Below are positions 9,256-33,105 of a stretch of 64,000 nt of DNA, one piece after another (position 1 is the first letter of the stretch; each line of letters starts with the position of its first letter). The notes under the pieces were generated by a model. It was not told where the DNA came from, did not search any database, and was given only the letters and a program-made list of their open reading frames with translations. The DNA is taken from positions 116,004 through 180,003 of the forward strand of contig NZ_JAPMLM010000072.1 of NCBI RefSeq assembly GCF_026410195.1. Direction: 5' to 3'. Made by a program: the position numbers and the translations under genes. This DNA is from Xanthomarina sp. F2636L (lineage in GTDB: Bacteria; Bacteroidota; Bacteroidia; Flavobacteriales; Flavobacteriaceae).

Positions 9256-9730
9256 GTTTGTCGTTAAGTCGTTTGGCGTTAATTATTAAGTTGTTTGATT
9301 TTAGTTAGTTATATTTATACTCTATAATTCTAAAATCTTAAAATATGCATGTTTATTCCTTCGAAAAGCTAGAGGTTTGGAAAGAAAGCATTCAATTAGC
9401 TATTAAAACGTACAAAACAACAAATTTTTTTCCAAGTGAAGAGAAATTTGGCTTAACATCCCAAATGAGACGATGCTCTATTTCCGTTTCTTCAAATATT
9501 GCTGAAGGGACTTCTAGAGCAACAAATAATGACAAAGCTCATTTGATGACAATGGCTTATAGCTCTGCAATTGAATTATTAAATCAATCCATTATTTCCA
9601 AAGAGTTACATTTTATCACCAATGATGATTATCTAGCAATTAGATATGAAATAGAATCAATTACAAATAAGATAAATGCTTTAAGAAAACATTTTTTAAA
9701 GACTTAATATCTAAACGACAAACGACAAAC
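9256..9730 (+). repeat. Inverted-repeat-bounded four-helix-bundle unit 1
   Basis: The four-helix-bundle gene is bracketed by imperfect inverted repeats. The left arm is 9256-9275 (GTTTGTCGTT then GTCGTTTG) and the right arm is 9713-9730 (AAACGACAAACGACAAAC). The first ten bases of the left arm pair perfectly with the right arm and another eight pair after a one-base offset. The unit begins 21 nt after the cysS stop and ends 17 nt before the yidD start, so it fills the intergenic gap. By analogy with stem-bounded 23S rRNA intervening sequences that carry this protein family, it may be a mobile or processed RNA unit; that is inference. Confidence 0.45.
9345..9707 (+). CDS. Four-helix-bundle protein (23S rRNA intervening-sequence / Avd-like family)
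   Basis: The 120-residue protein matches the small all-helical family first known from open reading frames inside 23S rRNA intervening sequences and related to the Avd protein of diversity-generating retroelements. The family signature is seen as L-x-V-W at 9-12, Q-M-R-R at 40-43 and S-x-N-I-A-E-G at 49-55. The helical pattern covers the full length and there are no membrane segments. No rRNA or reverse transcriptase gene is nearby, so neither classical role applies directly. It sits between cysS and yidD in sense orientation, enclosed by inverted repeats. A divergent relative is encoded at 31312-31683. Molecular function is unknown; nucleic acid binding is likely from the family's basic surface. 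Confidence 0.85.
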   Translation: MHVYSFEKLEVWKESIQLAIKTYKTTNFFPSEEKFGLTSQMRRCSISVSSNIAEGTSRATNNDKAHLMTMAYSSAIELLNQSIISKELHFITNDDYLAIRYEIESITNKINALRKHFLKT

Positions 9731-30347: not shown

Positions 30348-31226
30348 CTATTTGTGGCGCAACTCTCTAGCTAATAAGGTGTTTTTTAATAACATGGCAA
30401 TAGTCATTGGCCCAACACCTCCAGGAACAGGAGTAATAAAACTAGCTTTTTTACTCACGTTCTCAAAATCAACGTCGCCTGTAATCACATATCCTTTTGG
30501 TGAAGTTTCATCAACAACACGAGTAATTCCAACATCAATAATAACCACATCATCTTTAACCATTTCGGCTTTTAAGAAATTAGGAACTCCTAGGGCTGAA
30601 ATAATAATATCTGCTTGAGAGGTAATTTGAGTGATGTTTTTTGTGTGACTATGAGTAATGGTTACTGTAGAATTTCCAGGAAACCCTTTTCTTCCCATTA
30701 AGATACTCATAGGACGACCAACAATATGCGAACGGCCAATAACAACCGTATGTTTTCCTTTGGTTTCCACATTATACCTATCTAATAATTCAAGAATTCC
30801 AAAAGGTGTTGCAGGAATAAATGTGGACATGTCGAGGGCCATTTTTCCAAAATTCATTGGGTGAAAACCATCCACATCTTTATCTGGATCTACAGACATT
30901 AATACTTTTTGAGTATCTATTTGCTTTGGAAGTGGTAATTGAATAATAAATCCATCTATATCATCATTTAGATTTAGTTCTTCAATTTTATCTAATAATT
31001 CAATTTCACTTGTGGTATTAGACATTCTAATCATGGTAGATTCAAAACCCACACGTTCGCAAGCTTTCACTTTACTGCCAACATAGGTTAAACTAGCGCC
31101 ATCGTTTCCAACAATTACAGCAGCTAAATGAGGTACTTTTTCTCCTAAAGCCTTCATTTTTTTTACCTCTTCAGCAATTTCATTTTTAATATCGTTGCTT
31201 ACTTTTTTTCCGTCTAAAATTGTCAT
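30348..31226 (-). CDS. folD: Methylenetetrahydrofolate dehydrogenase/cyclohydrolase
   Basis: Bifunctional enzyme that interconverts 5,10-methylene-, 5,10-methenyl- and 10-formyl-THF. The 292-residue protein has the Y-V-G-S-K-V-K-A-C motif with the catalytic Lys near 57. Other matches are D-G-F-I-I-Q-L-P-L-P near 98-107, D-V-D-G-F-H-P-M-N and the NADP-binding G-R-S-H-I-V-G-R-P near 164-172. The C-terminal P-G-G-V-G-P-M-T motif is also present. Length is normal. It is downstream of ffh on the minus strand; the gap between them is filled by a second four-helix-bundle unit that ends 11 nt before the folD start. Confidence 0.97.
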   Translation of the reverse strand: MTILDGKKVSNDIKNEIAEEVKKMKALGEKVPHLAAVIVGNDGASLTYVGSKVKACERVGFESTMIRMSNTTSEIELLDKIEELNLNDDIDGFIIQLPLPKQIDTQKVLMSVDPDKDVDGFHPMNFGKMALDMSTFIPATPFGILELLDRYNVETKGKHTVVIGRSHIVGRPMSILMGRKGFPGNSTVTITHSHTKNITQITSQADIIISALGVPNFLKAEMVKDDVVIIDVGITRVVDETSPKGYVITGDVDFENVSKKASFITPVPGGVGPMTIAMLLKNTLLARELRHK

Positions 31227-31236
31227 AGTTAAAATA

Positions 31237-31773
31237 GTTTTCAGTCATAGTCACAGTTTACAGACTTACTCTGTCGCTTATGCGTTTATAGTTTTCAGTA
31301 AAAAGATTAAGTTATTCTACTTTCACTCCAAACTTCTCTGGATTGTTTATCATATAATTTATTAATTTACCAACTTCAATTCCTTTATTTGATAAACTTG
31401 TGTGTTGTTCGCTTGAAATATATTTACAGGCTAGAGCGAAATCTATCCATGTATTTGTCTCAGAATTCTCACCATCAGCATCCGTTAATTTACTAGTAAA
31501 ATGCTTCGGATATACTCGTTTTCTATATGCTTCAGCCAAATTAGCATTTACTGAACGAGAGCTTCTTCTTATCTGATCCGTAAGAGAATACGTTTCTTCT
31601 TTTGGAAATGATTTTGAAATTTCAAAAATAGACATCGCCAAATCAAATGCTTTCTGATATGCTATTAATTTTTTGAAATCCATTTTATCTTTTTCTAAAT
31701 GTCATTACTTAAAACTAAACACTAAAAACTGAGACTGCAAACTGAGACTGAGACTGAGACTGAGACTGAAAAC
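31237..31773 (-). repeat. Inverted-repeat-bounded four-helix-bundle unit 2
   Basis: The left arm 31237-31265 begins GTTTTCAGTC and ends CAGTTTACAGAC. The right arm 31733-31773 is, in reverse complement, GTTTTCAGTC followed by repeated TCAGTC and then CAGTTTGCAGTC. Allowing two extra TCAGTC copies in the right arm, 24 of 29 positions match. The unit lies 4 nt from the ffh stop and 11 nt from the folD start, so it makes up nearly the whole gap. It has the same architecture as 9256-9730, with unrelated arm sequence. Confidence 0.5.
31312..31683 (-). CDS. Four-helix-bundle protein (23S rRNA intervening-sequence / Avd-like family), second copy
   Basis: The 123-residue all-helical protein has the same family signature as 9345-9707: an N-terminal F-K-K-L-x-A-Y-Q-K-A, then Q-I-R-R-S-S-R-S-V at 37-45, and N-x-A-E-A-Y-R-K-R at 48-56. 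Overall identity to the first copy is low, so they are not a recent duplication. It is transcribed in the same sense as its neighbours ffh (upstream) and folD (downstream), and is enclosed by inverted repeats made of TCAGTC units. No 23S rRNA gene or retroelement is near. Role unknown. Confidence 0.85.
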   Translation of the reverse strand: MDFKKLIAYQKAFDLAMSIFEISKSFPKEETYSLTDQIRRSSRSVNANLAEAYRKRVYPKHFTSKLTDADGENSETNTWIDFALACKYISSEQHTSLSNKGIEVGKLINYMINNPEKFGVKVE

Positions 31774-31776
31774 TTG

Positions 31777-33105
31777 TTATTTCATCCCCTTCATAGCCTG
31801 CATCATGGCTTTTCCTTTTCCACCTTGCATCATTTTCATCATTTTGCTCATTTGGTCGAATTGCTTTAACAACTGATTTACCTCCTGAACTGATGTTCCA
31901 GAACCTTTACCAATACGTTTTTTTCTACTCGCATTTATAACAGACGGATTTGAACGCTCTAAAGGTGTCATGGAATGAATAATGGCTTCAATACCTTTAA
32001 AAGCATCGTCGTCTATATCGATATCTTTCATCATTTTTCCAGCTCCAGGAATCATTCCAATAAGGTCTTTCATGTTCCCCATTTTCTTGATTTGCTGAAT
32101 CTGCTTTAAGAAGTCGTCAAAACCAAATTGGTTCTTCGCAATTTTCTTCTGAATTTTTCTAGCCTCTTCTTCATCGTATTGTTCTTGAGCTCTTTCTACA
32201 AGAGACACAACGTCTCCCATTCCAAGAATTCTGTCTGCCATACGAGATGGGTAGAACACATCAATAGCTTCCATTTTTTCACCGGTACCAATAAACTTAA
32301 TAGGTTTATTAACAACAGATTTAATAGAAATAGCTGCTCCTCCACGAGTATCACCATCTAATTTGGTAAGAATTACCCCGTCAAAATTCAAGACATCGTT
32401 AAAGGCTTTTGCGGTATTTACAGCATCTTGCCCTGTCATAGAATCTACTACAAATAATGTTTCTTGTGGCTGAATGGCTTTATGGATGTTCGAGATTTCG
32501 GTCATCATGGCCTCATCTACAGCCAAACGTCCGGCAGTATCTATAATCACTACATTGAAACCGTTAGCTTTAGCATGAGCTACACCCGCTTTTGCAATAG
32601 CAACAGGATCGTTATTGCCTTTATCGCTAAAAACCTCGACATTAATTTGTTCTCCAACGACATGTAATTGGTCTATTGCGGCTGGACGATAAACATCACA
32701 GGCAACTAATAAAGGTTTCTTTGTTTTTTTATTTTTAAGGAAGTTTGCTAATTTACCAGAGAAGGTTGTCTTACCCGACCCCTGCAAACCAGACATTAAA
32801 ATAATGCTTGGATTTTCAGATAAATTGAGGCCTTCTGCATCTCCACCCATTAATTCGGTTAATTCGTCTTTTACGATTTTAACCATTAACTGACCTGGCT
32901 GAAGCGTCGTTAATACGTTTTGTCCTAAAGCTTTTTCTTTTACACGAACGGTAAAATCTTTAGCAATTTTAAAGTTAACATCGGCATCTAAAAGCGCTCT
33001 ACGAACTTCTTTTAAGGTTTCGGCAACGTTTACTTCCGTAATGCTTCCGTGACCTTTTAATACGTGTAAGGCTTTATCTAATTTTTCGCTTAAATTATTA
33101 AACAT
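31777..33105 (-). CDS. ffh: Signal recognition particle protein Ffh
   Basis: GTPase of the bacterial SRP that binds signal sequences and 4.5S RNA and docks with FtsY. The 442-residue protein has the N domain (1-~90) and the G domain with P-loop G-L-Q-G-S-G-K-T-T at 106-114, D-T-A-G-R near 189 and T-K-L-D-G-D-T-R-G-G. The methionine-rich M domain after ~300 includes R-x-R-K-R-I-G-K-G-S-G and repeated M-M runs at the C-terminus. Length is normal. A TATTTTTG box lies 24 nt upstream. The stop is followed within 4 nt by the arm of the four-helix-bundle unit. Confidence 0.97.
   Translation of the reverse strand: MFNNLSEKLDKALHVLKGHGSITEVNVAETLKEVRRALLDADVNFKIAKDFTVRVKEKALGQNVLTTLQPGQLMVKIVKDELTELMGGDAEGLNLSENPSIILMSGLQGSGKTTFSGKLANFLKNKKTKKPLLVACDVYRPAAIDQLHVVGEQINVEVFSDKGNNDPVAIAKAGVAHAKANGFNVVIIDTAGRLAVDEAMMTEISNIHKAIQPQETLFVVDSMTGQDAVNTAKAFNDVLNFDGVILTKLDGDTRGGAAISIKSVVNKPIKFIGTGEKMEAIDVFYPSRMADRILGMGDVVSLVERAQEQYDEEEARKIQKKIAKNQFGFDDFLKQIQQIKKMGNMKDLIGMIPGAGKMMKDIDIDDDAFKGIEAIIHSMTPLERSNPSVINASRKKRIGKGSGTSVQEVNQLLKQFDQMSKMMKMMQGGKGKAMMQAMKGMK

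Follow-up and report, generated by a model that had tools for sequence, protein, structure and literature searches.

What is a gene for a small four-helix-bundle protein doing in the gap between ffh and folD, framed on both sides by inverted arrays of a short word? The gene lies in a stretch of 64,000 nucleotides (the window; G000:C70:116004-180003) that is part of a 3.37-Mb draft genome and holds two such units. We take the neighbors of the second, unit 2, to be ffh and folD, names that a preliminary description of this DNA gives them; those of unit 1 resemble cysS and yidD. Our reading, to which we assign a probability of roughly 0.5, is that unit 2 belongs, as a single copy, to a repeat family with two parts, consisting of a gene of the 23S rRNA intervening-sequence-protein (IVP) family (PF05635/TIGR02436) within cognate arrays and of solo arrays elsewhere. 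The features are as follows.

31777..33105, minus strand: ffh, signal recognition particle GTPase, the 5' neighbor of unit 2 (open reading frame list)
31728..31774, minus strand: left (5') arm, an array with a CAGT core, in sense CAGTCTCAGTCTCAGT..., adjoining the ffh stop codon
31312..31683, minus strand: IVP-family gene of unit 2, four helix bundle protein of 123 amino acids (PF05635/TIGR02436)
31261..31277, minus strand: inner motif, in sense GAGTAAG, beside the right arm (by eye)
31236..31265, minus strand: right (3') arm, an array with an ACTG core, in sense AAACTGTGACTATGACTGAAAACT, about 10 nt before folD
30348..31226, minus strand: folD, the 3' neighbor of unit 2 (open reading frame list)
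9345..9707, plus strand: unit 1, an IVP gene of a different clade, with TCGTTTG/AAACGAC arms

The unit 2 gene, ffh, and folD all lie on the minus strand, and the gene is flanked by inverted arrays that read, in sense, CAGTCTCAGTCTCAGT... on the 5' side and ...GACTATGACTGAAAACT on the 3' side. Positions 31236-31257 are 86% complementary to 31753-31774 (22 nt), and positions 31241-31266 are 81% complementary to 31732-31757 (26 nt). The inverted repeats that the preliminary description had recognized are real, with 24 of 29 positions matching once two TCAGTC copies are set aside, and the spacings that it gave on either side of the unit, toward folD and toward the ffh stop codon, are right to within a base. 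By eye, the inner GAGTAAG motif is present beside some solo arrays as well.

The unit 2 protein is a member of the IVP family, scoring 112.7 bits against PF05635 (curated cutoff, 33.8) and 104.1 bits against TIGR02436 (curated cutoff, 24); the accessible parts of two papers call this family functionally uncharacterized (PMC11270868, PMC4990558). Its structural relatives in the PDB, 2rld and 2gsc, have five chains each, and the accessible part of one report describes a Xanthomonas relative as a toroidal homopentamer of four-helix bundles (PMC4990558). PF05635 and bAvd were the sole domain matches of the unit 2 protein, and no nuclease, transposase, or reverse transcriptase domain was found among the known-domain profile matches of the window's two IVP proteins. 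Avd of the diversity-generating retroelements is related; however, unit 2 scores 36.9 bits against the Avd model (44.4 bits against bAvd), under the 80-bit Avd cutoff, and its adjacent genes are ffh and folD. PADLOC gave no match for either IVP protein of the window, and the unit 2 protein was unmatched in 50,697 phage records; readings as a defense system or as a gene of phage origin were rejected on these grounds. The window had no Rfam match. PF05635 was matched 12 times in the genome itself, 2 to 14 times in each of eight genomes of the genus (one of them, G004, 75% complete), and at least once in 90 of 118 genomes drawn from the phylum to which the window belongs.

We gathered 170 IVP loci, 61 from the genus, 79 from a protein search, and 30 from the phylum as a whole; because the search for related loci kept the best 80 of 252, the CAGT clade of unit 2 is oversampled. 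A usable frame was present in 162 of the 170 (8 were dropped), and these formed 63 gene neighborhood clusters under a rule of 35% identity of both neighbors, with heuristic gene calls. Both neighbors were in sense with the IVP gene in 50 of the 56 clusters for which both are known (the others were +- in 4, -- in 1, and -+ in 1), compared with 577 co-directional cases among the 1,085 gene triplets counted over 1.24 Mb of the unit 2 genome (binomial p=8e-9); the sense orientation remarked on in the window recurs at most sites. Three IVP loci that had no neighbors by simple open reading frame calling (L244, L259, and L267) were unmatched in Rfam.

The two flanks of an IVP gene also pair with each other. 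At 51 sites the own-flank duplex came to -27.05 kcal/mol, against -15.31 kcal/mol for length-matched mismatched flanks (Wilcoxon p=1.7e-9); own flanks were the best against 16 controls at 29 sites and beat at least 14 of the 16 at 37. Co-directional control genes, of which 60 out of an available 194 went through this test, showed no difference (p=0.57), with own flanks the best in 2 and beating at least 14 of 16 in 10. Chance is indeed an unlikely source of the inverted flanks, as the preliminary description had supposed, and with 37 of 51 IVP sites against 10 of 60 control genes, the refuting condition that it had set, that inverted flanks are missing from most family members in related genomes, did not come about. 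For unit 2 itself the duplex was -49.6 kcal/mol, and 16 mismatched pairs of the same length averaged -28.0; one of these pairs, which include other CAGT elements, was equally good. The framed, inverted-arm architecture is common in the IVP family, and the family of units proposed earlier, with a conserved four-helix-bundle gene in inverted, low-complexity arms, is found in many genomes.

Each arm consists of a short core that recurs every 6 to 8 nt and is inverted between the two sides (CAGT...ACTG in unit 2), and the core tends to go with the clade of the protein, not with the site. With 69% identity to the unit 2 protein as the lower limit, the unit 2 clade has 13 site clusters; two of these, L118 and L150, seem to duplicate two others at contig edges, where the both-neighbor rule counted them apart, so the clade occupies about 11 gaps. 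Judging from protein ends, these gaps include what appear to be gmk-hemW and sites at hydroxyacyl-CoA dehydrogenase, yicC, and ABC genes. An average of at least two CAGT on the left and at least two ACTG on the right was found in 11 of the 13 clusters, the misfits being L143 (0 CAGT, 1 ACTG) and L122 (1 CAGT, 5 ACTG), and in none of the remaining 49, whose identity to unit 2 does not exceed 37% and among which L244 has 4 CAGT on the left and 1 ACTG on the right. The cores of the three clades are CAGT for unit 2, GTGA for the copies on contig C50 of the same genome, and TCGTTTG for unit 1.

A site-level Mantel test of protein against arms gave a rho of 0.169, with 11 of 2,000 permutations as high. 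Outside the unit 2 clade, arm similarity climbs from 0.14 below 30% protein identity to 0.42 at 70% or above; 216 site pairs with at least 50% protein identity had an arm similarity of 0.215 against a null of 0.145 (0 of 5,000 permutations), in a test that one locus set entered without clustering by site. The pair L001-L317, with 62% protein identity and an arm similarity of 0.07, is an exception. One gap, site 4, holds different IVP clades in different species, in three groups whose arms differ (proteins L014, L017, and L018 are 71 to 98% alike; L029 and L041 are 34 to 36%). Because cores vary from one protein clade to another, arms and protein make up a single unit. Clade cutoffs were set by hand, and kinship among the genomes makes the p values optimistic.

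These associations bear on another explanation, that the arms are passive repeats that grow by slippage and are homogenized by template switching, with the gene as a bystander. Heptamer arrays do exist in gaps without an IVP gene, and the copy number in the arms at ffh-folD is highly variable, as this would have it. However, the core is associated with the clade across sites and, for two clades, also in trans (see below), and template switching predicts perfect arms, whereas the spacers of the two arms differ systematically. A 7-nt period runs through the arms (identity at lag 7 of 0.419, compared with 0.324 over all gaps), and strong tandem runs are commoner in IVP flanks (29 of 122) than in gaps (24 of 723, of which 7 adjoin IVP genes). 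We regard this already disfavored explanation as very unlikely.

How the arms change was followed at the ffh-folD site, which is common to 46 of the 78 related loci with a frame. Of the 49 rows for this site, 48 carry CAGT twice or more on the left and 44 carry ACTG once or more on the right; three genomes are counted twice, and some right flanks are shortened by the choice of start codon. Copy number and spacers vary among these arms while the cores persist; the preliminary description was right to call the arms fast evolving in the former respect, but they are not free simple repeats. Its expectation that the two arms covary is borne out between elements, along the protein clade, but fails species by species at ffh-folD, where own arm pairs are no better than cross-species pairs (-32.7 versus -31.3; p=0.20; 46 loci). 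The spacers of the left arms are CT in 72 cases and CG in 12, and those of the right arms, read as the reverse complement, are CG in 50 and CT in 9. G.U-type differences between arms were no commoner than A.C-type ones (50.7 versus 54.5 over 48 sites; 13 versus 20 sites, p=0.30). We conclude that inverted cores have been kept and not a perfect RNA stem; a stem as the selected feature was rejected, as it finds no support in the cross-species pairing, the spacer comparison, or the G.U and A.C counts. The units were earlier called stem-bounded: their ends are complementary, but the stem as a selected feature is doubtful. The arms fit better with an end that acts at the DNA level or with an array for protein binding.

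The same results weigh on the idea that unit 2 is an intervening sequence resident in mRNA, whose arm stem RNase III would cut, freeing the unit from a polycistronic transcript. Unit 2 and the 23S rRNA intervening sequences, as far as the accessible part of one account describes them, have in common a PF05635 protein, an open reading frame within complementary ends, an orientation in sense with the host transcript, and a sporadic, decaying distribution, and excision by RNase III is reported there for Coxiella (PMC4990558). The pairing of own arms, the fold of the whole unit (z=-2.48; 2 of 100 shuffles equally good), and the sense insertion would also agree with excision. Unlike the rRNA intervening sequences, unit 2 lies between protein genes and not inside an rRNA gene, arms of its type are arrays of a 6- to 8-nt core that track the protein clade, and solo arrays occur in trans, some of them one-armed. 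There is no sign here of an RNA stem as the selected feature. The spacer differences, the G.U counts, own pairs that are no better than cross-species pairs, and the one-armed solo arrays speak against excision from mRNA, which we consider improbable.

Beyond what the preliminary description had noticed, arrays and hairpins of the same core occur without the gene, in numbers that track the cognate protein. The CAGT pattern is present in all eight genus genomes, and among the matches listed, many lie away from IVP genes. In 64 loci we distinguished 56 clusters of CAGT arrays, with 42 intergenic and having both neighbors (an IVP arm, L152, and a decayed unit, L172, are among them), 13 within open reading frames, and 1 at an edge. 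By eye, about 12 solo arrays are short hairpins that span the gap from stop to start codon (e.g., L168, L177, L169, and L303); one-armed solo arrays occur among the CAGT loci. The strand polarity of solo arrays was dropped as evidence for RNA because an inverted repeat reads alike on both strands. An ACTG-core array (L155; G005:C8) lies in an apparent tRNA spacer of an rRNA operon. Long CTCACGT/CTCACAA heptamer arrays with no IVP gene nearby, which have the GTGA core in common with the IVP copies of the same contig, were seen at G000:C50:67955-68096, 77176-77599, and 124993-125204.

In 120 Flavobacteriaceae genomes from 119 genera, we counted overlapping matches, not arrays, to the two core patterns. 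The clade cutoff for CAGT was set by hand at 60% identity, and five intermediate genomes were set aside. The median number of CAGT matches was 32 in the 20 genomes with the clade, 5 in the 58 with other IVPs only (p=6e-6), and 1 in the 37 without an IVP match (p=9e-10). The excess persists when 6 matches are deducted for the clade's own arms (p=0.0017; reversed control pattern, p=0.08); a stop codon lay inside 6 of the 20 best matches of the clade-positive genomes. For GTGA, with the L001 clade taken at 58% identity or more, the medians were 31.5 (10 genomes with the clade, all with at least 7), 1 (72 with other IVPs; p=8e-6), and 0 (38 without an IVP match; p=3e-9), and the excess remained after deduction of 5 own-arm matches (p=2e-4; control pattern, p=0.12). 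The ratio of GTGA to CAGT distinguishes the genomes with a single clade (9 versus 19; p=3e-4). The correspondence has exceptions: GTGA-only genomes hold CAGT matches too (median, 8), the CAGT count stays below 10 in four genomes that have the CAGT clade, and some genomes are rich in a core without its cognate clade (CAGT in G220, G135, and G184, with 113, 110, and 70 matches; GTGA in G197, G181, and G165, with 126, 51, and 33, and at least 5 in 23 of the 72). CAGT matches are also very numerous in G137 (402); G220 and G135 gave no close match to the unit 2 clade. A repeat word that is tied to one branch of the IVP family and also scattered in trans, as for the two branches tested, suggests a previously unrecognized two-part system.

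The placement of the intergenic arrays invites a different explanation, in which the IVP ring would be a posttranscriptional regulator, autoregulated and inherited mostly vertically, that binds arrays in mRNA untranslated regions, both its own and the solo ones, and sets translation or stability. TRAP, which reads spaced triplets, provides an analogy. CAGT arrays lie between stop and start codons and are depleted in divergent gaps (2 of 42 versus 146 of 723; Fisher p=0.014), the 42 being divided into 31 in co-directional, 9 in convergent, and 2 in divergent gaps (479, 98, and 146 such gaps in the unit 2 genome); purifying selection acts on the ffh-folD copy, which 46 loci retain in place; and the accessible part of a study of TAACTGA arrays, which contain the ACTG core, proposes a role in translation (PMC4679880). 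The 9 of 42 arrays in convergent gaps argue against such a role, however, as do the presence of one and the same clade, arms included, in about 11 separate gaps, the inverted order on two sides, for which a simple untranslated-region site has no need, and the decay and loss of units in close relatives. We consider this regulator rather unlikely, although less so than excision from mRNA.

The history of the units also points to an element. Median dN/dS was 0.154 at ffh-folD (418 pairs), and the median of 16 site medians was 0.13, which indicates purifying selection; medians of 0.47 to 0.59 were found at three sites where different clades occupy one gap. In the genus, ffh and folD stand 49 nt apart in G005, their gap lacks the gene in G003 and G004, and a remnant is left there in G006; these unit-free gaps likely reflect loss rather than non-insertion. 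At unit 1, the neighbors are separated by 2 nt, without the unit, in G003, G005, and G007, and by a longer gap, with the gene absent, in G001; G006 and G002 (L326 and L327) hold apparent decayed remnants, and G004 was unmatched. The flanks of the 2-nt empty gap at unit 1 are too diverged to reveal a target-site duplication. Purifying selection on copies that nonetheless decay characterizes long-lived, dispensable elements and not an essential gene, and the presence of one clade at about 11 gaps, with empty sites in relatives, is a hallmark of mobile elements. Near-identical copies within a genome were absent from the seven genus genomes, of eight, that were compared (closest pairs, 43 to 80% identical), so movement was not seen in action; recent transposition was rejected for these seven.

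The two-part repeat family that we favor would work as follows. The first part would be an IVP gene, probably promoterless, between two inverted core arrays, and the second the solo arrays and hairpins of the same core elsewhere in the genome. By analogy with the solved relatives, a ring of five four-helix bundles probably binds its own core array, and a ring that reads one core every 6 to 8 nt would be a natural model. Copies would have moved, each together with its arms, as units at the DNA level into gaps that run from a stop to a start codon, presumably mobilized by some enzyme, and read-through transcription from the upstream gene would account for their sense orientation.

In this arrangement the IVP units resemble REPINs and their RAYTs, in which a repeat-flanked gene is accompanied by dispersed noncoding hairpins matching its flanks, a likeness that rests here on inspection by eye and on array counts. 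RAYTs (TnpA-REP) are tyrosine transposases, whereas the IVP is a four-helix bundle without a tyrosine (HUH) transposase domain and its repeats are low-complexity arrays. The IVP system would function in the manner of REPIN/RAYT but is no member of that group.

Heptanucleotide STRR repeats are 7-nt arrays of cyanobacteria, the bacteria in which plasmid relatives of the IVP genes are found, and we propose that the two are linked. Cyanobacterial names are borne by 32 of the 33 plasmid records matched with unit 2 and by 22 of the 24 matched with unit 1. We examined 18 cyanobacterial loci from these records. Their arms are inverted in 11 (L340-L344, L347, L349, L350, and L354-L356), direct in 4 (strongly in L348 and L352, with long heptamer arrays on both sides, and weakly in L339 and L353), and neither in 3; the annotated neighbors are in sense upstream in 16 and downstream in 15, in an incomplete gene table. 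The commonest core by eye, GCAGGGG/CCCCTGC, was matched in 11 of 14 plasmid records, in several places away from the IVP gene, and a control pattern in none. Separately, the IVP genes of L352, L354, and L356 lie in sense within CRISPR operons (cas6-cas4 and cas10-cmr3), and those of L339, L341, L344, L347, L351, and L355 adjoin tyrosine recombinase/integrase genes, a possible mobilizing partner.

According to the accessible part of the original report, TAACTGA arrays occur in Beggiatoaceae, cyanobacteria, and five Bacteroidetes, and they are like the present arrays in their heptamer period, their ACTG core, their mostly forward position before start codons, and the overlapping phyla; that part links no IVP protein to them (MacGregor 2015, PMC4679880). 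Arrays with an ACTG core stand before start codons here too, at ffh-folD and solo loci. Because the plasmid relatives of the IVP genes mostly have cyanobacterial names, a link to arrays of the TAACTGA type is worth testing. More broadly, we tentatively suggest, as a possibility somewhat short of even odds, that IVP proteins are the partners of heptamer arrays in Bacteroidota and cyanobacteria, with clade-specific cores of 4 to 5 nt, set in inverted arrays, that are read and propagated; ring protein and repeat would then be related by a code. In the literature searched, mostly in forms other than full text, no description of stand-alone IVP genes in inverted heptamer arrays was found.

In conclusion, the link between clade and core, replicated in trans for two clades, turns two puzzles, the IVP family and the heptamer arrays, into one that can be tested, namely, whether each IVP ring recognizes the core of its own clade. 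Were this so, these would be natural protein-repeat pairs in which recognition by a small helical ring could be studied, and they would offer a clue to the spread of rRNA intervening sequences. If the broader suggestion is true, IVP genes and their arrays would constitute a miniature mobile or regulatory system without a known transposase, which would explain both the orphan "S23" genes and the heptamer repeats, TAACTGA included.
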